Below, one piece after another: positions 1 to 19,043 of a stretch of 64,000 bases of DNA (the stretch's first letter is position 1; each line of letters opens with the position of its first letter). The notes beneath the pieces are model-generated. The model was not told where the DNA came from. It was given only the letters and a program-made list of their open reading frames with translations, and did no database searches. This stretch comes from Alphaproteobacteria bacterium (GTDB taxonomy: Bacteria > Pseudomonadota > Alphaproteobacteria > UBA6615): contig JAJFIX010000027.1 of the NCBI GenBank assembly GCA_021774575.1, forward strand, positions 1 to 64,000. The letters are read 5' to 3'. The position numbers were made by a program, and so were the translations under genes.

Positions 1-95
1 TCCTTGATTGCCTTGGCTCCACCCGTCTGTCGGGTCTCCGATTTCTGCCTCATCTGCGTTCCCTTCGGTCACTACGATGAGCCAGAAATCCTCTC

Positions 96-3000
96 TTATG
101 CAATACCGCTAATCTGTTCCATAGGCGCTGATGGCAAACAGGTAAGAGAAATCCGCATTAGGTCCACTAACATGAGCATGATGGCAGGATCGTGCTCCGC
201 ACAAGCTTTGATCGCCTGAGCATGAAAGGTCGTGAGCGGTGTGTCCTGACTTAATGCATCTAACACTTTCTGAATCGCTGCGTCCCTGCGGGTTTCATCC
301 AACAGGTCTTGCCATAGCTCTGTGATCGCGAGATGGTAGGCAGCAAGCACGGATACTGTCGTAACGGTGTGATTGTGACCGTTTGTCATTATGGATGAAT
401 AAACGCGCATCCAAGGGGCCTCAATCTCTGGTGCACGCGGACTATCGCCAGCCAAACCTCGACGGGCTTGATCGGCAGGCACAACTGGCAAAGCATAGAA
501 GGACCTATAGATGGAAGTGCCAGGGTATGGGAAATGCATGTGTCGCCGCTGGTATAACGCGCCAAACTGTTGTTGAGGCACGCTGACCGTCGCTGTTGCC
601 GCAACTACTTTAGGAAGACGAACACTCTTCGTGCCTATTGGATTGCGCGCCACACGGCTGCCAAGAAGGTCGGCCGTGCGAACAAATAGTTGCTCAAGCA
701 TCGTTTCAAACAAGCCAGCGAAGGTGCCCAGACTCTCTTCAAGCAGATGGGCTTCGTCCTGGATAACCAGCGAAGGGAAAGGATCACAGAACACTTCGCG
801 CCCGTTCTGATAACTAGGGGCGACTGGCTCACAGTTGTTTGCCGCCGGGCCTTCTCGAAGCATTTTACGCGTCGGCATAACAAAATGGCCCGTGTCACGC
901 TCCTGCCAACGCGCCAATCCAAACATACCCATTACTCTGTTTATTGTAGCGGGATGCTGAGCGATCAGAGCTAGCTTGTCTATTACACCCAACAGGACTG
1001 CTGGTGCGTGCCTGTATATATCACGGTCCACAATCAGGAACGGCAATGGACTACGCTCAGTCTCCAAATTCCATGTGCACTGCGCGTTGAAGCAGACGAT
1101 ACCGATCTCATCGGCAGTACCAGTAGATATCCGGCGTATGCCTGTGTTCTGATTGCAAAGCGGACAAGTTGGGATTTTGTTGAAGCTTTCGTTGACCTCC
1201 AGGTAGTCCGCTGTCGGGTTGTCATCGTTTTCTTGTTTGGGGTCTTCAAAGCCGGGCACGGGATCAAGCCGAAGGTCGTCGGGTTTGTTCGGCGTGTTGC
1301 CACTGCCAACCCAAAAGCCGATCTCAAAGGGCTGTCCATCGATGGAGGCACGACAACGCAACAATTCTGCTTCCATCAAAATAGCTAGCAAACGTTGTGC
1401 CTGCTGCAGAGTCAACAATCTAAGAGGATAACGAATTAGAGCTGTCACGCCCGTGCTCTTACCACGCAAGCGGTCAAAGAAAAGATTGAAAACTAGCAGA
1501 CCAAAGAATGCCTCCGACTTGCCTCCACCTGTTGGAAAATAGAGAAGTGTCGCCGTTTCCTCGTCAAATTCAAGGTCAAACCAAGGTGCCTTAGCATATT
1601 CATCCATGCGGGATACGATGGTCGGAATGTGGGCAAGAACGAATGCAACCTGAAACAGACGCCAACTCTCGATGCCACGTTTCGCACCAGCTTTCATAAA
1701 AGTCTTGTTCAGGAGAAGCCAAGCACGATAGGGCAACGCCTCCCTGCATATTGGGTCTTTCAAAAAGTGTTTATGTGCAAATTCCAGTAGATCGATGCCG
1801 AGCGCAATCCTTTTTGCTTCGCGCCTGTAATTTTCGATGTCCTCTTCGAATTTTCTCCGTTCTTTGTCAGCTTCGTCTGTGTCCTTAGCGCCTTGTGTCG
1901 GGTCTAGGCTCTTCTCTTCCGCAGTAATCCACGCCAGATAGGCGTCGATAAGAGGCCGTAGACTCGCAGGATCAAATTCACCCGCACCTAGAACAACGAA
2001 TTGGATAGGAACGCCGCTAATCTCATTCGAAACAATCCTCGGCTGTTGATAACGAGGCATCCAGGTGGTGGTAAGACGCAACCTATCGCCCTTGACAACT
2101 TCGGCGACGCCACAATTAATACCGATGGCCGGATAGGAGAGAAAATCACGAAATCGGTATGACGCCTCCACGCGGTCGAGTTTCAAAGGCCTGTGAACAT
2201 CGGTGGGGATTTCGATAGAGAGTTGCACCTGGTGGATCGCATGATCGTAGTGGTGCCGCCGCCTTTTGGTTACTTCATTGCTGTTGTTTTCCAGCATGAC
2301 CCTCAGATTGCGGCGACCGGAATCACGCAAATCGTTATCAGTCTGGATTGTCAAAGATAGACCATCAAGATTGGGGGCCATGTCTTTGACAGAAGGTGCA
2401 ACCTTCCGCAATTCCTCGAGAAAATCATTCCAAGATTCTTTAGACCGAAAATGACTGGGCCTAATAGTGGCGGCTCTGTACGCCCAATTCCGCCCATCGT
2501 TGCTTGCAATCCAGTTGGCAACTGTACCGGTCACTGCCATCCGCATATTTTGGGACCACGACGCAGTAGCGGCGTAGTGGCTCTTTTCATCAGAAAGCGC
2601 AACAGACAACAGTTCAAGATTTACTGGGAGCCGACGCCACTTTTGTGGAATATCAATCTCCTGTGCCGCCAGGTCATCATCAAAAATATATTGTCCTCGT
2701 TGTGCAGCTAGGCGCGGAGTTCCATCCTCCACCTCGTCGTCTGGACTGTCCGTTTCCTCATCTTCATTCAATGAGTCGTCGGCATAATCAATGGCCTCCT
2801 CTGCGCCTGCCACCCATCCATCATCGGACAGTCTTACACCGTGCTCAGCAAGCAGGGTTCGGTAGATCTCTTGCTGAATTTCGCGGCGGTGCCGTCTTTG
2901 GTCTTCAGGCCTGCTTTCTTCTTCGGCCAGTGCCACATCCAGGCGTTCCTTCATCTCTTCAAGGACCGCGCTTTCAAGTTCCTTCCGCAATGGTGGATTT

Positions 3001-3368
3001 GGGTAGAGATCAAGCTCCTGCTTGACGAGTTCATCCCAACTTGGAAGGGCACGCACGTAAATTGAAAAGGAGGCGCTTACAGTCAGATCACCAGCCATGT
3101 CGGCTGCAATTTGGCAATCGATGCCATGAGTGCTGAGATGAATGTCAGAAGTCTCATCCTCCTGGCCGGTTTCCTTATAGCGAGGCAATAGGAATCCGGA
3201 AGCAAATCGCAAAGACGGCTTGGTCCCGTAGACTATCTCCCCGTCAGGACCAGCACCGCTGGATCGTTGCCAAGTTAAGTTCAGGAGTGCGTCAACCAGT
3301 CCTTCTTTGGCGTCGTTAACGCGGGAAGCCAATGCCGGAGGCAGCTCTTTCAAATCGACAGTTTTCAT
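96..3368 (-). CDS. DrmA-like DISARM helicase, apparently C-terminally truncated
   Basis: Resembles DrmA, the SF2 helicase core component of DISARM anti-phage systems. From the chosen ATG the protein is 1090 residues. Visible are an acidic linker (about 198-216), Walker A FPTGGGKS (about 611-618), the motif IRYPLRLLTLQQ that I associate with DrmA proteins, a four-Cys zinc-binding insert starting CPLC (about 735), a DEAH box in IQDEAHLLEE (about 870) and a motif III AATAT (about 923). The ATG at 3368 overlaps the upstream stop as ATGA and follows a strong GGAAGGGAG ribosome site, so a longer reading frame starting at 3437 is rejected. The frame ends shortly after motif III: no second RecA lobe with an arginine-finger QASSRVGR-type motif is present. 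That suggests a frameshift, a split gene or truncation. Helicase identity is firm; DISARM membership is inferred. Confidence 0.72.
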   Translation of the reverse strand: MKTVDLKELPPALASRVNDAKEGLVDALLNLTWQRSSGAGPDGEIVYGTKPSLRFASGFLLPRYKETGQEDETSDIHLSTHGIDCQIAADMAGDLTVSASFSIYVRALPSWDELVKQELDLYPNPPLRKELESAVLEEMKERLDVALAEEESRPEDQRRHRREIQQEIYRTLLAEHGVRLSDDGWVAGAEEAIDYADDSLNEDEETDSPDDEVEDGTPRLAAQRGQYIFDDDLAAQEIDIPQKWRRLPVNLELLSVALSDEKSHYAATASWSQNMRMAVTGTVANWIASNDGRNWAYRAATIRPSHFRSKESWNDFLEELRKVAPSVKDMAPNLDGLSLTIQTDNDLRDSGRRNLRVMLENNSNEVTKRRRHHYDHAIHQVQLSIEIPTDVHRPLKLDRVEASYRFRDFLSYPAIGINCGVAEVVKGDRLRLTTTWMPRYQQPRIVSNEISGVPIQFVVLGAGEFDPASLRPLIDAYLAWITAEEKSLDPTQGAKDTDEADKERRKFEEDIENYRREAKRIALGIDLLEFAHKHFLKDPICREALPYRAWLLLNKTFMKAGAKRGIESWRLFQVAFVLAHIPTIVSRMDEYAKAPWFDLEFDEETATLLYFPTGGGKSEAFFGLLVFNLFFDRLRGKSTGVTALIRYPLRLLTLQQAQRLLAILMEAELLRCRASIDGQPFEIGFWVGSGNTPNKPDDLRLDPVPGFEDPKQENDDNPTADYLEVNESFNKIPTCPLCNQNTGIRRISTGTADEIGIVCFNAQCTWNLETERSPLPFLIVDRDIYRHAPAVLLGVIDKLALIAQHPATINRVMGMFGLARWQERDTGHFVMPTRKMLREGPAANNCEPVAPSYQNGREVFCDPFPSLVIQDEAHLLEESLGTFAGLFETMLEQLFVRTADLLGSRVARNPIGTKSVRLPKVVAATATVSVPQQQFGALYQRRHMHFPYPGTSIYRSFYALPVVPADQARRGLAGDSPRAPEIEAPWMRVYSSIMTNGHNHTVTTVSVLAAYHLAITELWQDLLDETRRDAAIQKVLDALSQDTPLTTFHAQAIKACAEHDPAIMLMLVDLMRISLTCLPSAPMEQISGIA

Positions 3369-6028
3369 CTGCTCCCTTCCGGCTCGTTCGAAACAACAGT
3401 CACGACATGGTGCTCGGCAGTCTCGTAGATCCGCCATACTTCATGCCGACGCTTTTCAGGAAGCTGGGAGATAGTGCCATACGGATCGATGAGAATGCGC
3501 ATGAATACCTGATGGAAAGCTGAACCAGTGCGAATTCGCATGGAACGTGTCCAAAAAATTCCCCAGTCCCAATAGTGACGCGCCACGTCCTCACTAATCC
3601 CAAGTGCATTCATGAAACTCAGGTAATGGTGTCGGTTGCGTGGTGCCTGGGGTCTGACTTCGTTCCGTGGAGCATCGATAAGGTCGGCGACATCTATCCA
3701 GTGTCGCATAGCCAAAAGCCCCGGCAAGGCCAATGTAGGGTCAATATTGAGCATGCTCTCGCGGAGAGCATTGACCTTAGCCGTAATGTCAGCACCAGGT
3801 AAATTTTCAACCGCACCGACAACCGCCTCGTGATAGAGGGACAAGACATTTGAGGCATCGGCAGTGAGGCTCAACTTTTCGCGCGCCATGTCTACGAAGT
3901 CATGGCTAAATACACAAATTTGTTCACCTGGCTGTAAGTCCTTTGCCAGCTTCCGAGTAAAGACCTGCAGCGCCTCAGGATCGTAGAGCGCAACCTCTGA
4001 ACCGTCGAACGCCCTAATCTGAAGATTGCCGGAGGTAGTAATAATCCGAGGATGTCCGGAACCTGGCGCGGCGACAGTTGTCAGGTCGAGAGTTCCGAGG
4101 CGCGGTAATTGCGGCTCGGCATCTAGATCGGGAATATCCATGGATCGACCGTCCATGGCGCGTTCAAATTCCGTTTGAACAGCGAGAAGCATATCCCCGA
4201 TGGGCTCGATACCGTCAATCTCAAGCAAAATACGAATGCGTCGCAAGGTTTGTTCTACGCGCGCCAAATTTGAGAGAACGTAGACGCTCTCAGGAAGCCA
4301 CGGTCGAGTCAGAACATGTAGCAGGTCATCTGCGTACGGCTCGATAAAAATGATGCGCTGAAATAGCTTCTGCTCTTGCTGACTGAGGTCAAGCTCTTCA
4401 ATGGCTTCGCGGCGATCCACTAAAAGAAGTTTCCGTCCTAGACTCGGACGCACGTCAGATAGCGCCGCATCGCCTTCGATACGCCACTCAGCGAAACCAC
4501 GAAGTAACTCACTCGAAAATACGATGATCGAACGCGTAGCTTTGCGCGTAAGGCCGCGAACACACTCATCAAAAAGCTTGTGTCCTGGGTTGTTAGTATC
4601 CGCTAGCTCACATAACTTGTCGTACGAGATGAGAAACTGCGAGAGACGCTTGTGATTTGCGCCGGCAAGCCCCAATTTCAGGGCTGGTTTGATCTTACTA
4701 CGTGGTGCTATGTGGTCGAATTTCGCGCCCATGCTCTGAAGTTCGAAGCCCTCGTAATTCTCTGTGAGGAATTTGTTAAGTTCGCGTGGTGATCCCGGCA
4801 ATCCGATTATATTTTGAAGTACGCTCACCGCAGTGGTAACTGCATCGGCGATCTCTTCTTCCCCGGCGTCCAGCAGGGCTCGCCTTAGCTTGAGGCCAGA
4901 ATCAACAACCTCCAGAACGTCCGCGCCATAGACCTCTGCGGTAATTTGGGAGAGGCCGGTGCCAGAGGCAGATTCCTGACCCAGCAGATCTGGCTTGGAG
5001 TTGAGAACAACATGAGATTTAGCGGGCCTCTTGTGATGCGTGATGGTACTGCGCCGAATGTCGAACTCCTTGATGATTTCCCACCGAAGTGCTTGCAGAA
5101 CAAAAACATCATCGGTTACAGCCAGTACGGGCGGACATTCGGTGCCATAAAGGTCGCGTACTATACTGAGAAAGCGTGCCAGCGGCTGACGCCAGTTTTT
5201 TCCGAGCCTGTTTCGAGCGCGCCGCGTGAGATCGATTAGAATGATATCTGGTCGGCGACCGCCATGGCGGGGATCAAGACTAGCTGCGCGTAACAATTTG
5301 ATGCGTGCAGCATTGGCATGAACACCGAATAAAAAGAATGGAGTGCGCAATGGATCAGCCGCCGCATCAGTATGTTCTCGACGTTCTGATATCCAGGTAT
5401 GACGTTGGAGGCGCCGTAGAAACTGATCCTCATATGTGCGCACGCCTGCATTCTCGATACCGTTCTGGGGAGTGATCTCAAAGAGCGTAGGATGAACAAG
5501 ACCAGGATCGTTCTCTATGGCTTTTCTGAACCTCATGTCCTTCTTGCCACTTGTGAGAAGATGCTTAAGGCTATGCAACGCCATGAGATAGCCAGTGACG
5601 GAACTGCCGGAAGACTCGAGCAAAACCCGGTTAAGAGTGGGTAATGTGGCTTCGTCGATATAGCTGCGGTCAATCAAGAGCGTTCTCTGGGTTCCACCTG
5701 TACTCCGACTCCAGGGAAAAAAGAGAGTGGCGAACCCTGTGCTATCGCAGCTACCGAGGCGCTGAAGCGCCGACAGGGCATGTATTATGGCGACACCGTC
5801 AAGCTGTTGGGGCCAAATCAACGCGGCTTCGCTCGTGCCGCTGGTCAGCACGCGGTCGAATAACCGGAGTAACTCGGTTGCCGACGGTCCAATGCCACAA
5901 AGGTTTTCAGGTTCACTGCGGCGGCGAAGACGCAACCTCTCGCTTGTGGAAAGTGTTTCAGCGCCGCCACGGGACGAATCATACAGGCGGGTCGCGCTGG
6001 TACATGAACTTTGGCTATCTCCCATCAT
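3365..6028 (-). CDS. Large protein of unknown function, possible DrmE-like DISARM component
   Basis: About 887 residues, lying between an adenine methyltransferase and a DrmA-like helicase with coupled starts at both ends. I see no intact Walker A motif. A stretch IILIDLTRRARNR near the middle looks like a degenerate strand-plus-acidic site, and another, IIVFSSELLRGF, resembles a Rossmann-type strand; neither is diagnostic. In class 2 DISARM an uncharacterised protein, DrmE, is found with drmA, and the position here fits that role, but this is inference from context and size. The frame extends to 6133; I prefer the tandem ATGATG at 6025-6028 because it overlaps the methyltransferase stop by only 11-14 bases and lies close to the usual coupling distance. 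The residues before it are rich in Ser/Thr and look untranslated. Confidence 0.5.
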   Translation of the reverse strand: MMGDSQSSCTSATRLYDSSRGGAETLSTSERLRLRRRSEPENLCGIGPSATELLRLFDRVLTSGTSEAALIWPQQLDGVAIIHALSALQRLGSCDSTGFATLFFPWSRSTGGTQRTLLIDRSYIDEATLPTLNRVLLESSGSSVTGYLMALHSLKHLLTSGKKDMRFRKAIENDPGLVHPTLFEITPQNGIENAGVRTYEDQFLRRLQRHTWISERREHTDAAADPLRTPFFLFGVHANAARIKLLRAASLDPRHGGRRPDIILIDLTRRARNRLGKNWRQPLARFLSIVRDLYGTECPPVLAVTDDVFVLQALRWEIIKEFDIRRSTITHHKRPAKSHVVLNSKPDLLGQESASGTGLSQITAEVYGADVLEVVDSGLKLRRALLDAGEEEIADAVTTAVSVLQNIIGLPGSPRELNKFLTENYEGFELQSMGAKFDHIAPRSKIKPALKLGLAGANHKRLSQFLISYDKLCELADTNNPGHKLFDECVRGLTRKATRSIIVFSSELLRGFAEWRIEGDAALSDVRPSLGRKLLLVDRREAIEELDLSQQEQKLFQRIIFIEPYADDLLHVLTRPWLPESVYVLSNLARVEQTLRRIRILLEIDGIEPIGDMLLAVQTEFERAMDGRSMDIPDLDAEPQLPRLGTLDLTTVAAPGSGHPRIITTSGNLQIRAFDGSEVALYDPEALQVFTRKLAKDLQPGEQICVFSHDFVDMAREKLSLTADASNVLSLYHEAVVGAVENLPGADITAKVNALRESMLNIDPTLALPGLLAMRHWIDVADLIDAPRNEVRPQAPRNRHHYLSFMNALGISEDVARHYWDWGIFWTRSMRIRTGSAFHQVFMRILIDPYGTISQLPEKRRHEVWRIYETAEHHVVTVVSNEPEGSR

Positions 6029-7754
6029 GGCCGCCACGTGTACAGTTTCTATCGGAAAGACATTTGGTATTCCCACGGATTGAAAGCTCGTATGCGACTT
6101 CGGCAGCCTCGTCATCCTTGACGCCCCGGCCAAAGGCAGCGTGAATCTCGCGCGCGGCAGGAAGCGGAAGCTTGCGCAAGGCCTTCGTCGATACGCTGAC
6201 GGAACCTGAGATTCGTCGGAACCGAGAATCTACAGCTGATGTATTCAGAAGGCGGCAAAGTAACTTTAGTGAAATCGTCTGAGATTTGGCAGGATCTGGG
6301 AATATTACAATAGTGTGATTTTCGCTAACAAATCCCTGCTGACCGGGGACCCTATCCTTCCGAACAACGGCCGCGATCAATCGACGTTTCTGCCGACGAT
6401 TGCTCGTACGCTGAAGGATTATTGCATCGCTACGAACAATTGCAGTGCTATCTCTTGCGATCTTCACGAGGCCAATGCGATTGGAATCAAGCTCCCCATC
6501 GTGAGGTTCGCAAATCGTGTTGGGCTTTATGTTGTGCGCCCAGAATAGAGGAACCTCGTTCGCGCGCGGCTTAAAGCCCCTTCTGTACCGGTGCTGCTCT
6601 CGGTTCCACACGAAGTATCCTGCCTTTGCTGCATAACCATAGTCGTGGAGCGTCTCCAGCCCGTCCTGAAAAAGTCGGTCATGCAGCGTGCCATCTGGCA
6701 AGGCCCAGAGACGCTCGCTTGGCTGCACGGGAAGGTCGAGACAACCAAGGCTGCGCGGAGGCTTGTCGATCAAGAGAAGCGCACTCGTGGCGGGAGCGGC
6801 ATGCGCCTTTTGGCCCTTCTTCCTCAGTACTAGAACACATACGTCGTACATCACATCCAAAAATAAATCACGGCGCTTATCAATCGGATCAAGGCGCAGA
6901 ACATGCGATGTTTCGAGGATGCGCTTTCTTAAAGCGGCGAAGTATGCGCCACCCACAAAGGATGTGGGAACGATAAGACAGATCACGCCGTCGGGCCTCA
7001 CCCACCGCAATGCCTGCTCAATAAACAGAGCATAAAGGTTGACATACCCATCTGTAATGATTGGTTGAAAACGCGTTAGAAGGTCCTTGGAAGGACGAAA
7101 AACCCGACCGTATGGGGGATTCCCAATGACGGCATCGAAGAGAGTATCCGGTGCGGGCGATTTCAGTGTGTTAACCCTCTGGATCGGAACGCGGAGCTTC
7201 CTCCCTGCTTCCTTAATCTCAGCGCGCAATAAACTAGAAAGGAGGGTGCGTGACAGACATGCAAGATGAGGTTCTATTTCCATACCAGCCAAGGTTGCTT
7301 CGATCTTTTGAAGAATGATCTCCGGCTTTATCCCACGCTGTCGGCCATTGCAGGCAATCCGAGAAGCAAGGGGGACCAGAAACGCAGCGCCACCAGAAGC
7401 AGGGTCAAGAATTCTGTGTTTGCCTGGCTCAATACCAGCCTCGACCAAGACATTGATTGCATGGTCAACCAGGTGAGGCGGTGTGAAATAGGCTGCAAGA
7501 CGCCTCCGGCGACCCTTCGGCATCAGGAGCGCATAAAGGCTTGATATCCAGTAATGCTTCTCATCATCAGCCAAGTCTTGAAAAAAAATTCGCGCCGGCG
7601 GACAAATTAACCGGTTCTGGACGATAGCCTCGCACACTTGCAAAGGCGTCATTTCGAAATATTCTAGCTCAGACACAATCCGCCGAAGGTCACGCAACCG
7701 CCGAATACGTGTCTGCTCAATTTCCTGTATGTCGGTGGTGTCCTGTAAGTGCAT
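6015..7754 (-). CDS. N6-adenine DNA methyltransferase (Eco57I/HsdM-like fold)
   Basis: About 579 residues. The N-terminal half carries a YFTPP motif (about 90-94), the AdoMet-binding motif I as DPASGG (about 118-123, in place of the common DPACGSG) and the catalytic motif NPPY (about 213-216), so it should transfer a methyl group from S-adenosylmethionine to adenine N6. The C-terminal ~250 residues probably recognise the DNA target; a stretch YFVWNREQHRY resembles those seen in Eco57I-type enzymes. It is the first gene of a three-gene operon with a DrmE-like gene and a DrmA-like helicase, so its likely job is to mark self DNA for a defence system. It starts at tandem GTG-ATG (7757/7754) after a weak AAGAAG site. 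No separate nuclease or specificity gene is adjacent in the visible DNA. Confidence 0.83.
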   Translation of the reverse strand: MHLQDTTDIQEIEQTRIRRLRDLRRIVSELEYFEMTPLQVCEAIVQNRLICPPARIFFQDLADDEKHYWISSLYALLMPKGRRRRLAAYFTPPHLVDHAINVLVEAGIEPGKHRILDPASGGAAFLVPLASRIACNGRQRGIKPEIILQKIEATLAGMEIEPHLACLSRTLLSSLLRAEIKEAGRKLRVPIQRVNTLKSPAPDTLFDAVIGNPPYGRVFRPSKDLLTRFQPIITDGYVNLYALFIEQALRWVRPDGVICLIVPTSFVGGAYFAALRKRILETSHVLRLDPIDKRRDLFLDVMYDVCVLVLRKKGQKAHAAPATSALLLIDKPPRSLGCLDLPVQPSERLWALPDGTLHDRLFQDGLETLHDYGYAAKAGYFVWNREQHRYRRGFKPRANEVPLFWAHNIKPNTICEPHDGELDSNRIGLVKIARDSTAIVRSDAIILQRTSNRRQKRRLIAAVVRKDRVPGQQGFVSENHTIVIFPDPAKSQTISLKLLCRLLNTSAVDSRFRRISGSVSVSTKALRKLPLPAAREIHAAFGRGVKDDEAAEVAYELSIRGNTKCLSDRNCTRGGHDGR

Positions 7755-7865
7755 CACTTCTTTTTTTCTAATTTCTCAAACGAGAGTGTAACCATCGAGC
7801 ACCCACTTGAATAGAGAAACATGGGCACCATATCAGGCCACCCAATTGGAATGAATGGCCTGTCA

Positions 7866-9506
7866 TCACCCCATCGACCTCCCACCACCGCCGGGACCAT
7901 CACCCCTACCACCGCGTTCCTGCCCTCTAGCCGCTCGACTATGCGCGGACTTCACGGACCGAGGCTCCTTGCTGCGCTGATTAAAGGCGTCGTAGGCGCG
8001 TTTCAGGTCCGACTTGCTCATGCCGCTGGTTTTCTCGCGGCCCGATTTCGAGACGCCATGCGCCTTGAGTTGGGCCTGTTCCTGCGACTTCTCGTTGGCT
8101 TTCGCAATCGCCATGTCGATTTTGCCGACCGCCAGCGCGTGGGTGCCGCGTATTTGGCTGCGGCGGGTGCTCTCGTTGTGGCGCATGCCGTTGCGTTCCT
8201 TGGTGAACCCCTGCCTGACCTGCCCTTGCTCGCGCTTGACGGCCTTGCTCTGCTGCGTGCCTAGGGCCTTGCGCTCCTTGTCCTGCTGCTTGGCAAGTCC
8301 GGGGGCTTCGCCCTTGATGACCCAGCGGAAGGCCGGGGCCAAGCTGCCCTTGGTCTGGTCATTGAACAGGTTTTCGCCGCGTAGGTTCTTGAGCAGGTGC
8401 TTGACCCGTCCATAGGCAGTGCGCCGCGCGTAATCCATGCCCTTGCGCTGCTGTTCCTGACGTTGCAACAAGTCGCGCCATTCGGGCTTGTGACCCTCCT
8501 TGACCCGCTTGCTGACCTCGGCAAGCGCTTTGGCCTCGCGAGCGTGTAGACCCTCCCGAAGCGCCTTGAACTCGGTATTCGCCGCTTTGTTCTCGGCCCA
8601 CATGGCGGCGGTCGCATGGGCCTTGGCGGTTTTCATCTCGTCGATGGTGTTGGCGGTCTCGCGGGAGCGTTCGGCTTGGGCCATGGCGCGACCGGCGATG
8701 AACACCCGTGCCCGTTCGACGGAGGGCAATTTTTCCGACGGACGGTCGGCGAGTTTGATCTTGATCTCGCGGGCCTTGGCGTCCTCGACGTGGCGGCTCA
8801 CGGAAAAGACCTCGCCCGCCATATCGACGACGACATAGGCACGTCTCTGACCCTGCGCCAGATGATAGCCGCGTTCTTCGAGGGCATGGACGAAGCTCGC
8901 CCCGTTATCGGCCTCGCGATAGGCGGCGGTGATTTCGGTGATGCGCTGATCCTTGGTGATGCCGGTGCGCTTTTCCTGATTATATTCAGCCCAGTTTTTC
9001 CGGGACCGCTCGTTGAACCTGTCGGTGCCCCGGTCCTTCTCTAGACCCTCGGGCAGTTTGTGACCGAACTGGTGGGCCAGTTTTCTCGCCATGTCGCGGT
9101 TACGCTGCCGGTCGAACGAATTGTGAATGATCTTCATATTTTCGGCATCGACCCGCGACCAGACGACATGGGCATGCTCGCGGCCCTTCTTGTTGTGAAA
9201 CACGACGACACGCGGCTGGCCAACGAGATTATGCGCTTCTTCGAGCTGGTCGATGGCCGTGGCGTATTGTTCGCGGGTCATCGGCTCGCTCGGATTGATC
9301 GACAGCGAAAACAATGGCTTGGTGCCTTTTGTTCCAGCGGCGACCGCTTCCATCTCCTTGAACGCACCCATGACATCGTCGGCGACCGTGCCGCGCACTT
9401 CGGCAATCTCGAAGGTCTGGTCGAAGCCATCCTTATCGACGGTGCGCTGAAGGTGATACGCCAGATCGACACCGTTGGCGCGGATATTAGATTTAATGAT
9501 TGTCAT
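7866..9506 (-). CDS. MobA/VirD2-like relaxase (MOBP type)
   Basis: 546 residues. Relaxases nick oriT and stay attached to the 5' end of the transferred strand. The N-terminal domain has the expected metal-binding histidines: His104 in VVFHNKKGR, then HAH at 111-113 followed by VVWSRVD. Tyr17 is a candidate nucleophile. The C-terminal half is charged and alpha-helical, and ends in a glycine-rich tail (GRGDGPGGGGRSMG). The start ATG overlaps the mobC stop (ATGA), so the two are translated together. An inverted repeat CAGGCCA/TGGCCTG at 7834-7862 lies just after its stop in the otherwise empty spacer to the methyltransferase gene, without a T-tract. GC is visibly higher than in the methyltransferase operon, which suggests a separate origin. 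Confidence 0.87.
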   Translation of the reverse strand: MTIIKSNIRANGVDLAYHLQRTVDKDGFDQTFEIAEVRGTVADDVMGAFKEMEAVAAGTKGTKPLFSLSINPSEPMTREQYATAIDQLEEAHNLVGQPRVVVFHNKKGREHAHVVWSRVDAENMKIIHNSFDRQRNRDMARKLAHQFGHKLPEGLEKDRGTDRFNERSRKNWAEYNQEKRTGITKDQRITEITAAYREADNGASFVHALEERGYHLAQGQRRAYVVVDMAGEVFSVSRHVEDAKAREIKIKLADRPSEKLPSVERARVFIAGRAMAQAERSRETANTIDEMKTAKAHATAAMWAENKAANTEFKALREGLHAREAKALAEVSKRVKEGHKPEWRDLLQRQEQQRKGMDYARRTAYGRVKHLLKNLRGENLFNDQTKGSLAPAFRWVIKGEAPGLAKQQDKERKALGTQQSKAVKREQGQVRQGFTKERNGMRHNESTRRSQIRGTHALAVGKIDMAIAKANEKSQEQAQLKAHGVSKSGREKTSGMSKSDLKRAYDAFNQRSKEPRSVKSAHSRAARGQERGGRGDGPGGGGRSMG

Positions 9507-9874
9507 GGGTTACGCCCCAATGCTGACATGCAGGCCGAGCGTATATCCGTGACCGTCCTCAAGGCGTCCTCGATGGCCGCTTGAGACGGGTTGTCGCCGG
9601 GGGAGTTCAGTGCCTTGGCGATCTGGTTGACGTTGCTGCCGACCTTGCCAAGATGCCCGAGCAGCTGGGCAACGTCCTTGCGGGGTTGGGTAGGCACCCG
9701 CGAGGACCGGGGCGGCGGTACGTCGAGGGCGAGCATGCGCAAATACGCGCCCGCGGTAAGGCCAACGGCTTGCGCTTTAGCGTGGATCTCGTTGCGTTCC
9801 GCCTTGGTGAAGCGAACGGAGAGCGCCACATCGCGCTGCCGTTTTTGTGAGCCTGAGCGATGCTTCTTTGTCAT
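9503..9874 (-). CDS. MobC-like relaxosome accessory protein
   Basis: 123 residues. It has a ribbon-helix-helix-like beginning (DVALSVRFTKAERNEIHAKA) and the MobC-type core GKVGSNVNQIAKALN, about residues 75-90. Such proteins bind oriT and help the relaxase melt the nick region. It overlaps the relaxase start by four bases and directly follows a hairpin-rich spacer that is the natural place for oriT. Family assignment is based on the core motif and on the neighbour. Confidence 0.8.
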   Translation of the reverse strand: MTKKHRSGSQKRQRDVALSVRFTKAERNEIHAKAQAVGLTAGAYLRMLALDVPPPRSSRVPTQPRKDVAQLLGHLGKVGSNVNQIAKALNSPGDNPSQAAIEDALRTVTDIRSACMSALGRNP

Positions 9875-10938: not shown

Positions 10939-11004
10939 TCGACCTCTGGACGAGTCATGCGCCTTTCGTTAAACCGCAAGCATGAAAGGACTTTCGTTCC
11001 CTAA
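10909..11004 (+). pseudogene. Inverted copy of the 5' end of the small gene at 10466-10717
   Basis: A 31-codon frame starting MAYETTEKT matches the MTYETTEKT start of the small gene on the other strand and then diverges. It runs into the start of the coupling-protein gene. It may be a leader peptide or just the remnant of an inverted duplication. No independent evidence of expression is visible. Confidence 0.4.
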
Positions 11005-12511
11005 GCGCAAAGCACTGGTTCCCAAGATCATGCCGTTTCCCCGTGGCGTTTATGATCGTCCACGCGATAAGGGAGCACTGCCGTTTGCCCGCTGGCTGAT
11101 GGACGAGGAAATCCTCGATGGACGGTTCCGCTACATACCCGGCCAGTCGATCTTTCTGGGGCAATGGAAGGGACAATTCATCGGTTCGAACGACGACCGC
11201 CATATTCTGACCGTGGCCGGGTCGCGGACCGGTAAATCGTCGGCGGCGCTCATTCCCAATTTGCTCGATTATCGCGGCGCAACCATTGTCATCGATCCCA
11301 AGGGCGAGCTGGCGCGCGAGACGGCTTTATGGCGCAATAAACCTGACGGAGCCGATCAGCCGGTTCATATTTTCGACCCGTTCGGAACCGTGCGCGGCAA
11401 GGCCGCCGATCTGCCGAAAGCCCGGTTCAATCCCATGGACCTGCTCAGCGTCGACCCCGAGGACGAAAATCTCGTCGATGACGCGGACATGATGGCCGAA
11501 AGCCTTGTCCCGGAAGATCCGGGCCGGGGGGCCGATCACTGGACGGCGGCGGCCCGGAACATCGTCAAGGGGATTATCCTGCATGTCGCCCTTAATTCCG
11601 ATCCGGAAGACCGGACACTTCTGAGCGTGCGGCGGTTTTTAACCGACACGGAATTCGAAAAAGCCGACGATACGGACGGCGACTCGCTTTTGGATGTCAT
11701 GGAAATGGGCGCGGGCGGTGGCGGTGCTTTCGACGTGGTCGCCGGAGAGGCTGCGACCATCCGCACGATGGGGCCGACCGAACGCGGCTCCGTCCTGTCG
11801 GTCGCCCGGACGCAAACAAAATTCCTGAGCTCCCCGCAAATGAAGGACGTTTTGTCGTCATCGCCCAAACCATTCAGATTCGAGACCCTGAAGGACCGCC
11901 CCGCGACCGTCTATTTATGCCTGCCCGCGATGCGCATGGGCACCCATAGCCAATGGCTGCGCCTAATGATCAATATGGCCTTCGGCGCGATGGAGCGGAA
12001 CGAGACCATACCCAAATTGCCGGTCCTGTTCATTCTCGAAGAATTCCCGGTTCTCGGTCATATGAAGCAGATCGAGACCGCCGCCGGTCTGATGGCCGGG
12101 TTCGGCGTCAAGCTGTGGACCGTCGTGCAGGATTTCGGGCAGCTGAAAAGCCTCTATCGCGACAGATGGGAAACATTTCTGGGTAATGCCGGCGTGTTGC
12201 AGGCCTTCGGCAATAACGACGTATTGACCCTCGACTATCTCTCCAAGCGCCTTGGCAGGACGTTTTTTGTCCAGCGCGAGGAGCGCCATGTCGGGTCCGG
12301 CCAAGCCCAGCACGGCGAAATCGGCGAGCGCGAATCCGCCCAAAGCTCGGCCCTTCTGGACCCGGCGGAACTAGCGATCTGGTTCGGTCGTCATAAGGAC
12401 AAAAAGGAACAGCCGCAATTGCAACTGCTCATCATCGGCGACCAGCATCCCGTCGTTATCGAGCGCGTCGCCTATTACGAACACGAATATTTCAAGGGGC
12501 GGTATGCGTAG
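10982..12511 (+). CDS. VirD4/TraG-like type IV coupling ATPase, no membrane anchor
   Basis: 509 residues. Coupling proteins bring relaxase-DNA complexes to a secretion channel using ATP. Walker A is AGSRTGKS (79-86), followed by IVIDPKGEL (102-110), a signature of this family; Walker B is in LFILEEFPVLGH near residue 350; QTKFLSS and VQDFGQLKSLY are further family stretches. Most VirD4 proteins begin with two transmembrane helices, but here the nucleotide-binding core begins almost at once. The next gene, overlapping by 8 bases, has two hydrophobic segments and could supply an anchor. No VirB genes are in the window. Confidence 0.85.
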   Translation: MKGLSFPKRKALVPKIMPFPRGVYDRPRDKGALPFARWLMDEEILDGRFRYIPGQSIFLGQWKGQFIGSNDDRHILTVAGSRTGKSSAALIPNLLDYRGATIVIDPKGELARETALWRNKPDGADQPVHIFDPFGTVRGKAADLPKARFNPMDLLSVDPEDENLVDDADMMAESLVPEDPGRGADHWTAAARNIVKGIILHVALNSDPEDRTLLSVRRFLTDTEFEKADDTDGDSLLDVMEMGAGGGGAFDVVAGEAATIRTMGPTERGSVLSVARTQTKFLSSPQMKDVLSSSPKPFRFETLKDRPATVYLCLPAMRMGTHSQWLRLMINMAFGAMERNETIPKLPVLFILEEFPVLGHMKQIETAAGLMAGFGVKLWTVVQDFGQLKSLYRDRWETFLGNAGVLQAFGNNDVLTLDYLSKRLGRTFFVQREERHVGSGQAQHGEIGERESAQSSALLDPAELAIWFGRHKDKKEQPQLQLLIIGDQHPVVIERVAYYEHEYFKGRYA

Positions 12512-16471: not shown

Positions 16472-16614
16472 TGCGTAGCGAAAAACCCCACCCACGTCTG
16501 ATCGAGATAGCGCAATTTCTGGCACGCCGCGCCGTCGAAAGAGATTATGAACGCCTACTGAAAACCGGAAAACAGCCCTTTGAAAACGATGACAGTGAGT
16601 TAAAAGCACCATGA
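16468..16614 (+). CDS. Micro-protein B of the recombinase operon (48 residues)
   Basis: Starts at ATG 16468, overlapping micro-gene A by four bases, and ends in the ATGA shared with the recombinase start at 16611. The product is mostly one helical segment, IEIAQFLARRAVERDYERLL, then KTGKQPFE, paralogous to micro-protein A without the basic leader. Both junctions being 4-base overlaps means translation of all three is coupled. Confidence 0.65.
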   Translation: MMRSEKPHPRLIEIAQFLARRAVERDYERLLKTGKQPFENDDSELKAP

Positions 16615-18323
16615 AACGAGTCGCCATATACGCCCGGTACAGTTCCGACCTGCAAAAGGAAACCTCGATTGAGGATCAAGTGCGCCTGTGCGAAGAACGC
16701 GCGGCTAGGGAAGGTTGGCAAATCATTAATTGCTATACCGACCCTGCCCTCTCCGGTTCGAACATGATGCTGCGTCCGGGTGTCCGGATGCTGATGCAGG
16801 ACGCAATAGACGGGAAATTCGAAATCATTTTGTCCGAGGCGCTGGACCGGTTGTCGCGTGATCAGGCCGATATGGCCGTGATGTACAAACGATTGAACTA
16901 CGCCAATGTGAATATCGTCACCCTGACAGAAGGCGAAGTTGGCATTATCGATATCGGCCTGAAAGGCCTAATGAACCAGCTTTATATCGTCGAGATGGCG
17001 AAGAAGGTGAAGCGCGGACAGCGCGGACGCATTGAGGCGGGCAAGGTCACTGCCGGACTGGCCTATGGCTATAACGTCGTCAAGAAATTCGATGCGCGCG
17101 GCGAGCCAATCCGGGGCGAACGAGAAATCAATGAAGAACAGGCGGCTATCGTCCGACGTATTTTTACCGAATACGCGGATGGGCGGTCGCCCAAGGCCAT
17201 CGCGGCGCAACTGAACGAGGAAGGCGTGCGCTCGCCGACCGGCAAGGGGTGGAACCAAAGCTCCATCAATGGCCGACGGGACCGGGGATACGGCCTCCTG
17301 AACAATCACATATATATCGGCGAATTGGTCTGGAACCGGGTGTCGCAGTGGAAATGCCCCGATACCGGCTCGACGAAACGCCGTTTGAACCCCGAGGAAG
17401 AATGGATCAGGAACGAAGCGCCGGAGCTGCGCATTCTCGATCAGGACCTATGGGACCGGGCAAAAGTGCGCCAAGCGGAACTGACAAAACAATCGGGGAA
17501 ATTCTGGACGGCGCACCGACCACGTTACCTGCTTTCGGGCTTACTGAAATGCGGCACATGCGGGGGCGGCTTTTCCAAGGTCAATCATGAGCGCTATGCG
17601 TGCTCCACAGCGCGCAACAAGGGCACCTGCGAAAACCGGTTGAGCATGAAGCGCGATGACATCGAGCGTAGCGTGCTCCACGCCATTCAGCACAAGATCA
17701 TGGCCCCAAACGCGCTGGCTCTGTTCTGCGAACAGTATATGCGCCACTGGAATGAATTACGGGCCGAGCGTAATGCCAATATCCATTCCTATCGAGCAGA
17801 GCTGGAAAAACTGGCGCGAGGCAAGAAAAAGATCGTCGAGGCGATTATCGCCGGTGTACCCGGATCGGAAGTGAAGGACGATATGAACGAAATTGTCCGC
17901 CGCCGCACCGAATTGGAAATGTTGCTCGACCAGACGGACGAAATTCCAGTGTTGCTTCATCCAAAAATGGCAGATCATTACAAACGGCAAGTCGGGCGTC
18001 TTGTCGCCGCGTTGGAATCGGGGAGCGAATCCGAGCGGGACAGGAACTGTCTGCGCACCCTGATCGACAAGATCACATTGACCCCGAATACAACCGGGAA
18101 CGCACTGCAAGTCGATCTATATGGCAATTTAGCAGGTATTTTGGCGATGGCCGATGAGGCTGAAACGCCCAGCCAGCGCGCGATTGCGGCTGGTGGGCGC
18201 GTCAAATTGGTGGGCCCGGCGGGCCTTCGACTTGAGTACCGGGAGATTTCTGCAGATCCGCACATCGGCGCGCCCCCTTTCTACCGGCAGGTCGAGATTA
18301 AATCCGGCTTCCGGGCGATCTGA
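16611..18323 (+). CDS. Large serine recombinase (site-specific integrase)
   Basis: 570 residues. The N-terminal catalytic domain starts AIYARYSSDLQKETSIEDQ with the nucleophilic serine, and has EALDRLSRDQ. The recombinase domain follows (about 165-270: GLAYGYNVV, FTEYADGRSPKAIAAQLN, GRGxx-type helix region), then a zinc ribbon with Cys pairs LLKCGTCGGGF and YACSTARNKGTC (about 310-345), and a coiled-coil-like end (HSYRAELEKLARGKKKI). This is the standard large serine integrase layout. Being the last gene before core chromosome, it probably integrated the element. No matching att repeat is identifiable within the window; the 66 bases to the next gene hold nothing obvious. Confidence 0.92.
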   Translation: MKRVAIYARYSSDLQKETSIEDQVRLCEERAAREGWQIINCYTDPALSGSNMMLRPGVRMLMQDAIDGKFEIILSEALDRLSRDQADMAVMYKRLNYANVNIVTLTEGEVGIIDIGLKGLMNQLYIVEMAKKVKRGQRGRIEAGKVTAGLAYGYNVVKKFDARGEPIRGEREINEEQAAIVRRIFTEYADGRSPKAIAAQLNEEGVRSPTGKGWNQSSINGRRDRGYGLLNNHIYIGELVWNRVSQWKCPDTGSTKRRLNPEEEWIRNEAPELRILDQDLWDRAKVRQAELTKQSGKFWTAHRPRYLLSGLLKCGTCGGGFSKVNHERYACSTARNKGTCENRLSMKRDDIERSVLHAIQHKIMAPNALALFCEQYMRHWNELRAERNANIHSYRAELEKLARGKKKIVEAIIAGVPGSEVKDDMNEIVRRRTELEMLLDQTDEIPVLLHPKMADHYKRQVGRLVAALESGSESERDRNCLRTLIDKITLTPNTTGNALQVDLYGNLAGILAMADEAETPSQRAIAAGGRVKLVGPAGLRLEYREISADPHIGAPPFYRQVEIKSGFRAI

Positions 18324-18389: not shown

Positions 18390-19043
18390 ATGCAAATCGA
18401 CATTCATGCAGACACTGTCTGTCCGTGGTGCCTGATCGGCATTGGACGGTTGCGCCAGGCGATTGCTGCGCGGCCTGGGGCCGGTGCGAAATTTCGCTGG
18501 CGCAGTTTTTTGCTCAACCCGGACATGCCGCACGATGGCATGAGCTGGGACGATTACCTGACGATCAGGTTTGGGACGGTGGCCCGTGGACAGGCCGTTC
18601 ATGAACGTATTGCCGAGGTCGGAAAAGAAGTCGGCGCGGTGTTTCGGTTTGATCGCATCCAGCGGATACCCAACAGTCTCGATAGCCACCGGTTGTTGCT
18701 GCATGCGGTGGCTCAGGATCTCGAAGCCGAGTTTTTTGCTGTTCTCACCGGTGGTTTTTTTGTCGAGGGCGCGGATATTGGCGACAAAGAGACCCTTATC
18801 GGATTGGCCCGCTCAGCCGGATTGAATGGCGACGATGCCCGCGCTGTGCTCAACGGCGACGCGTATCGCGACGAAGTTCTGGCCCAGGACCGGCGCACCC
18901 GGCGGGTCGGGTTCGACAGTGTTCCAACATTTGTTTTTGCCGACCGGTTTGCCGTCGCCGGCGCGCAAACCGAGGAAACCTTAACACCGATGCTCGACCT
19001 CGCAAGAAGCCAAAGTGAACAAGCGCTGGGGCTAAAGCCGTGA
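18390..19043 (+). CDS. DsbA-family (FrnE-like) thiol oxidoreductase
   Basis: 217 residues with a CPWC redox site at 11-14 (DTVCPWCLIGI), as in the FrnE subgroup of the thioredoxin fold; the long helical insert (about 60-160) and the C-terminal GFDSVPTFVFADRFAVAGAQ, containing the cis-proline strand, agree. No signal peptide, so cytoplasmic. First core gene after the mobile element; convergent with the Sel1 lipoprotein gene. Confidence 0.88.
   Translation: MQIDIHADTVCPWCLIGIGRLRQAIAARPGAGAKFRWRSFLLNPDMPHDGMSWDDYLTIRFGTVARGQAVHERIAEVGKEVGAVFRFDRIQRIPNSLDSHRLLLHAVAQDLEAEFFAVLTGGFFVEGADIGDKETLIGLARSAGLNGDDARAVLNGDAYRDEVLAQDRRTRRVGFDSVPTFVFADRFAVAGAQTEETLTPMLDLARSQSEQALGLKP

Follow-up and report, generated by a model that had tools for sequence, protein, structure and literature searches.

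A truncated DISARM-type operon with a divergent DrmE homologue and an N6-adenine methyltransferase: probable remnant of a DISARM variant broken by an insertion sequence

Introduction

Do an N6-adenine DNA methyltransferase, a large protein (X) in the operon position of DrmE and a DrmA-like helicase, encoded by three overlapping genes, constitute a DISARM system, and if so, of which class? This question is raised by one end of a stretch of 64,000 nucleotides (the window) of an alphaproteobacterial genome, a 3.5-Mb draft of 46 contigs and 96.9% completeness in which the window forms the start of contig C20. In published DISARM, an autoinhibited DrmAB loads on 5'-overhang DNA that lacks modification and presumably blocks or unwinds it, its activity being lowered by methylation, and DrmC is dispensable (PMC9142583). 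PADLOC defines class 1 as DrmA, DrmB, DrmC, DrmD and DrmMI without DrmE, and class 2 as DrmA, DrmB, DrmC, DrmE and DrmMII (PMC9252829).

Results

Gene layout and genomic surroundings

Three minus-strand genes joined by short overlaps had been described in a first-pass annotation of this DNA, and both the genes, at nearly the positions given there (Table 1), and the overlaps are borne out by the sequence: the methyltransferase stop codon and the start of X overlap by 14 bases, and the stop of X shares an ATGA with the helicase start (ATG 3368), an overlap of 4 bases. Start codons were picked by these overlaps and by the closest relative.

Table 1. Features of the operon and of its neighbourhood in the window
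Feature	Position	Strand	Basis or remark
IS3-family insertion sequence, right end, ...GGCAAACA at base 140	1..140	.	contig C20 starts inside
Spurious 15 codons and stop (at 96) fused to DrmA, wholly IS sequence	96..140	-	sequence, IS boundary
5' part of drmA (SF2 helicase) up to codon 1076, with RecA1 and its zinc insert, without RecA2	141..3368	-	PADLOC DrmA
X, divergent DrmE homologue, 887 aa	3365..6028	-	start ATG 6028; profile-profile match
N6-adenine DNA methyltransferase (MTase), 580 aa	6015..7757	-	start GTG 7757 or ATG 7754; Pfam, PADLOC
Relaxase	7866-9506	-	Pfam
NikA/MobC-like protein	9503-9874	-	Pfam
TraG/VirD4	10982-12511	+	Pfam
Large serine recombinase, chromosome-side edge of the element	16611..18323	+	Pfam Resolvase, Recombinase, Zn_ribbon_recom

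The genes between 7866 and 18323 also include a resolvase, and past the serine recombinase follow the chromosomal genes mfd and recG and two tRNA-Leu genes. The G+C content is 51-53% in the operon versus 58-60% beyond about 18 kb. Because of this succession of mobility and chromosomal genes and of the shift in composition, the operon looks like the cargo of an integrated mobilisable element, which, as the gene order suggests, ends beside a DsbA-like gene at 18390.

A DrmA helicase cut by an insertion sequence

The window fragment of the helicase is recognised as DrmA by PADLOC (E 1.6e-72) and obtains 312 bits with the NCBIfam model DrmAS, under the 950-bit cut-off. It contains IRYPLRLLTLQQ, the Walker A motif FPTGGGKSE and the DEAH box QDEAHLL; it carries the RYPLRLLT segment, and the cysteine pairs CPLC and CFNAQC are located between motifs I and II, so that the DrmA-like segment and the zinc insert reported previously were both found. 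Motifs I, Ia and II are kept, motifs V and VI are missing, and none of the RecA2 motifs YVTNKKGG, ATS.ISHGVDV and QASSRVGR occurs in the window helicase. The similarity to DrmA stops at base 141, where the alignment with the closest intact DrmA (1414 aa, from a Terriglobia MAG; 69% identity over its codons 2-1075) ends, and the second RecA domain is therefore missing.

Window bases 1-96, the end of an insertion sequence (IS), recur with high identity at five places in the genome. Aligned IS copies are the same as far as GGCAAACA (base 140), diverging immediately beyond, at least nine other contig ends stop in IS copies, and a full copy at locus L012 encodes an OrfA/OrfB transposase of the IS3 type. 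The IS replaces everything past helicase codon 1076, the second RecA domain included, a truncation missed by the first-pass annotation, which had taken the helicase gene for complete. A further copy of this IS lies inside a gene whose product, as judged by eye, is TIR- or deoxyribosyltransferase-like (L012:1596-2006, contig C2), so that the defence-type genes disrupted by the element may number more than one.

X is related to DrmE at the profile level

X obtained zero matches among the PADLOC and NCBIfam models, those of DrmE included; archaeal DrmE was recognised by the same PADLOC library with an E of 2e-122. In profile-profile comparison (hhalign), ten X sequences matched five archaeal DrmE with E 4.5e-10, and with E 2.7e-16 over 560 columns when three bacterial proteins from the same operon position were added to the archaeal set. 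All controls, that is reversed profiles, ten column shuffles, DrmD (E 0.41) and DrmB, remained at E 0.04-0.9, and the match persisted at E 4e-8 to 5e-12 whichever sequence was dropped. The aligned region includes a C-terminal block with the motif '..GD.I.V.S'. As judged by these profiles, X is a very divergent DrmE, and the protein previously placed in the DrmE position by gene order turns out to be an actual DrmE homologue; as the identity is only about 14%, conserved function need not follow from this homology. The window X and its counterpart in the Terriglobia MAG are 57% identical. A search of the PDB with the X profile (hmmsearch) returned chance-level matches alone, and neither X nor the helicase turned up in scans of viral contigs. 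A structure of X predicted from a two-sequence alignment was set aside at a mean pLDDT of 34.

The adenine methyltransferase

The previous description of the methyltransferase as an Eco57I-like adenine methylase agrees with its Pfam domains (Eco57I, E 7e-16; N6_Mtase, E 6e-14) and with motif IV, IGNPPYGRV, which contains the NPPY motif of N6-adenine enzymes. It matches PADLOC MTase_II (PDLC03338) with E 5e-103, TIGR02987 of NCBIfam under the cut-off, and the TaqI methylase in the PDB with E 2e-8. DrmMI is absent among the best 25 of its 57 PADLOC matches; DrmMI models give >1100 bits on class 1 methylases. The search of the three proteins against DISARM profiles that had been proposed as a check thus held for DrmA, gave no direct model match for DrmE and did not return DrmMI among those best 25.

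Intact relatives

In PLSDB, X is encoded by six plasmids and the helicase is matched across at least 80% of its length by eight plasmid records. X, drmA and drmB occur together at all ten other loci, and drmC, encoding a phospholipase D (PLD) protein, in eight of these. The order MTase-X-drmA-drmB-drmC is found in Mesorhizobium, Sphingomonas and Polaromonas and in two further genomes (L052, L053). Rhizobium 3841 has the methyltransferase located after drmC, R. phaseoli has X-drmA-drmB-drmC with a non-adjacent methyltransferase, and Afipia keeps the five-gene order with a methyltransferase from another family. The closest relative, the Terriglobia MAG, encodes MTase-X-drmA-drmB and has no PLD gene beside drmB; in Sinorhizobium americanum (L002:8859-23326) IS66 copies interrupt drmB, and the annotation of X covers part of its length. 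Altogether, a methyltransferase of the same family lies directly upstream of X at eight loci, the window and one partial locus at a contig end included, and downstream of drmC at a ninth.

The fourth gene encodes DrmB according to PADLOC (E 7e-13 to 9e-17) and to profile-profile comparison with known DrmB (E 5e-33), and its product matches the DrmB chain of structure 7s9v over the cysteine module; DrmC matches of the PLD protein, the product of the fifth gene, are weak. DrmA of the intact relatives is about 1380-1480 aa long. The SNF2 helicase DrmD is found neither in the window nor in the annotated operons of the relatives. The clade was detected in one of 385 genomes of the window's class, which is the window's own, and in three of 398 genomes of its phylum, again with its own included.

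Position within DISARM

A maximum likelihood tree of 24 DrmA helicases, midpoint-rooted and with several long branches, recovers the window clade as monophyletic (100/100) on the DrmE-type side, apart from class 1. Compared with the DISARM core, the window copy has an incomplete DrmA, and DrmB and DrmC were not found. As to class 2 features, DrmE was detected by profile-profile comparison alone, and the methyltransferase is of the NPPY adenine type, not the cytosine enzyme DrmMII; as to class 1, there is no DrmD, and the methyltransferase of 580 aa is not DrmMI. The intact relatives satisfy neither PADLOC class rule, and the clade, with another methylase in place of the cytosine enzyme, lies outside the class 2 definition. 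No paper on a named 'DISARM class III' came up in a literature search.

Related loci were noted on the way. Plasmid-borne DrmE-type DISARM loci are present in Streptomyces, Rubrobacter and Allocoleopsis (L056:2567-13679, L059:2589-13762 and L058:1502-12932), two of which carry a DUF1156-like methylase instead of a C5 methylase; the Streptomyces and Allocoleopsis DrmE score weakly with NCBIfam and have no PADLOC match, and that of Rubrobacter has no NCBIfam match. A 1798-codon frame (L048/L054, G665:C89), whose C-terminal block resembles DrmE (80.8 bits to NF038316), may carry a DrmE domain within a different kind of protein. In Sphingomonas parapaucimobilis (L040:1-19773), a class 1 DISARM, in which drmC is not annotated, is located between cas3 and casA of a type I-E CRISPR-Cas system.

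Discussion

A DISARM variant of five genes, MTase-drmE-drmA-drmB-drmC, has very probably left its 5' part in the window, as cargo of an integrated mobilisable element and with drmA broken by an IS3-family insertion, and the intact relatives most likely act as DISARM. The DISARM-type assignment made in the first-pass annotation is upheld by the DrmA profile match and by drmB and drmC in the relatives; the absence of DrmC next to the closest relative counts against the five-gene model. In the intact relatives, the N6-adenine methylase would mark the cell's own DNA, with N6-methyladenine as the presumed self mark, and the DrmA helicase, together with DrmB, a separate partner of the DUF1998 type, would load on unmarked incoming DNA to block or unwind it. 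DrmC may degrade incoming DNA, and the DrmE-like protein may be an accessory factor.

With respect to the window copy itself, drmB and drmC had been expected left of the window, where base 1 proved to be the contig end. The intact DrmA, as query against all 46 contigs, returned the window fragment alone, searches with DrmB and PF09369 found no drmB in the draft, and drmC or its PLD protein was likewise not found, the DrmB and the drmC searches having been run without a positive-control genome. Absence of the two genes from the flank, named previously as refuting the DISARM reading, thus applies to this copy and not to the family, as relatives have both. Conceivably, the cell retains the remainder of the operon, either because drmA is simply interrupted by the IS or because the assembly collapsed at the repeat, with the 3' part of drmA, drmB and drmC outside the draft. 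Contig C20 starts in the IS, other contig ends stop in its copies, and a draft of this completeness with several contigs ending in the IS may have left the missing part unassembled. This is nevertheless unlikely, as neither the remainder of drmA (expected at about 69% identity) nor drmB was found in any contig, and the seven contig ends bearing the other IS end all lack drmA sequence; nor do contigs with that end show a GGT target duplication matching C20. In any case drmA would be IS-split. A helicase without RecA2 is unlikely to function here, so that the methylase, perhaps as an orphan, is the most that could remain active, and the window copy is most likely dead, without defence activity.

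The other alternatives concern the identity of the genes. An ordinary type II modification gene might by chance have come to lie beside a helicase remnant without forming a joint system. The methyltransferase family is indeed broad and plasmid-borne, with BsuBI/PstI-type nucleases adjoining some members, and the Afipia and R. phaseoli loci depart from the common arrangement; such a coincidence is very improbable given the recurrence of the same family upstream of X at eight loci and after drmC at the ninth, and given the two gene overlaps. That X is an unrelated protein in the operon position of DrmE has in its favour the missing PADLOC and NCBIfam matches and the low identity, and is still harder to maintain against a profile-profile E of 2.7e-16 over 560 columns with every control at E >0.04. 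YprA helicases, and in part methylases, are also common to ARMADA, Druantia, Dpd, BRIGADE and TALON (PMC12458937), and the operon could belong to one of these rather than to DISARM. We consider this scarcely credible, since DrmA is the best helicase match (DpdF and DruE reach a mere E 3e-5 to 0.01), the BrxHII helicase and a methylase of PglX size are both absent, and the canopy module is encoded in the relatives by the separate gene drmB, described as a DISARM hallmark; a fused OB-CON-DUF1998 protein or BrxHII/PglX partners, as marks of ARMADA, Druantia or Dpd, were not found.

Within the preferred DISARM reading, the first-pass suggestion of a 'mixed or new subtype' was right, as a DrmE homologue is combined with an adenine methylase other than DrmMI. 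More tentatively, and with the odds somewhat against it, the ten relatives and the window might form a third DISARM class, a DrmE-A-B-C core with exchangeable adenine methylases (mostly Eco57I-like, of another family in Afipia, DUF1156-like in distant DrmE-type loci), in which self-recognition would not depend on a single methyl mark and the class would be set by DrmE rather than by the type of methylase.

DISARM itself is known; new here is the variant with a divergent DrmE and an adenine methyltransferase. Counts of DISARM should miss such systems, since the intact relatives fit neither PADLOC rule and the annotation of their DrmE and DrmA reads hypothetical or helicase-related. Members of this rare clade, which has no model, can readily be sought with the new profiles, which also make testable whether DISARM self-recognition depends on which base is methylated; with two very divergent DrmE groups now comparable, what DrmE does becomes testable as well. 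The window itself captures a defence system in the course of loss to an insertion sequence.

Among known systems, the 'Uncharacterized DISARM-like classes' in the Figure 1 legend of Bell et al. 2025 (PMC12458937) are alike in having YprA helicases of DISARM-like type that belong to no named system, their members not being named in that legend. Against the Serratia DrmAB structure (7s9v/7s9w), the relatives' sequences give distant matches that span the two RecA parts of DrmA and, in DrmB, the C-terminal cysteine module; the window copy lacks RecA2. With class 1 (drmD, drmMI, drmA, drmB, drmC) the clade shares adenine methylation and the drmA-drmB-drmC order, but it is without DrmD, has a methyltransferase of about 550 aa versus the 1300-aa DrmMI and a helicase outside the class 1 clade. 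Class 2 (drmE-drmA-drmB-drmC and drmMII) differs in its cytosine DrmMII, whereas the clade has an adenine methylase, placed first, a DrmE too divergent for existing models and, in intact relatives, a DrmA of the length given above; alike are the DrmE homologue just upstream of drmA, followed by drmB and a PLD protein, and the position of DrmA on the same side of the tree. Judged by sequence, the operon is thus a DISARM variant, class-2-like by DrmE and DrmA, with an adenine methyltransferase of about 550 aa that is neither DrmMI nor DrmMII.
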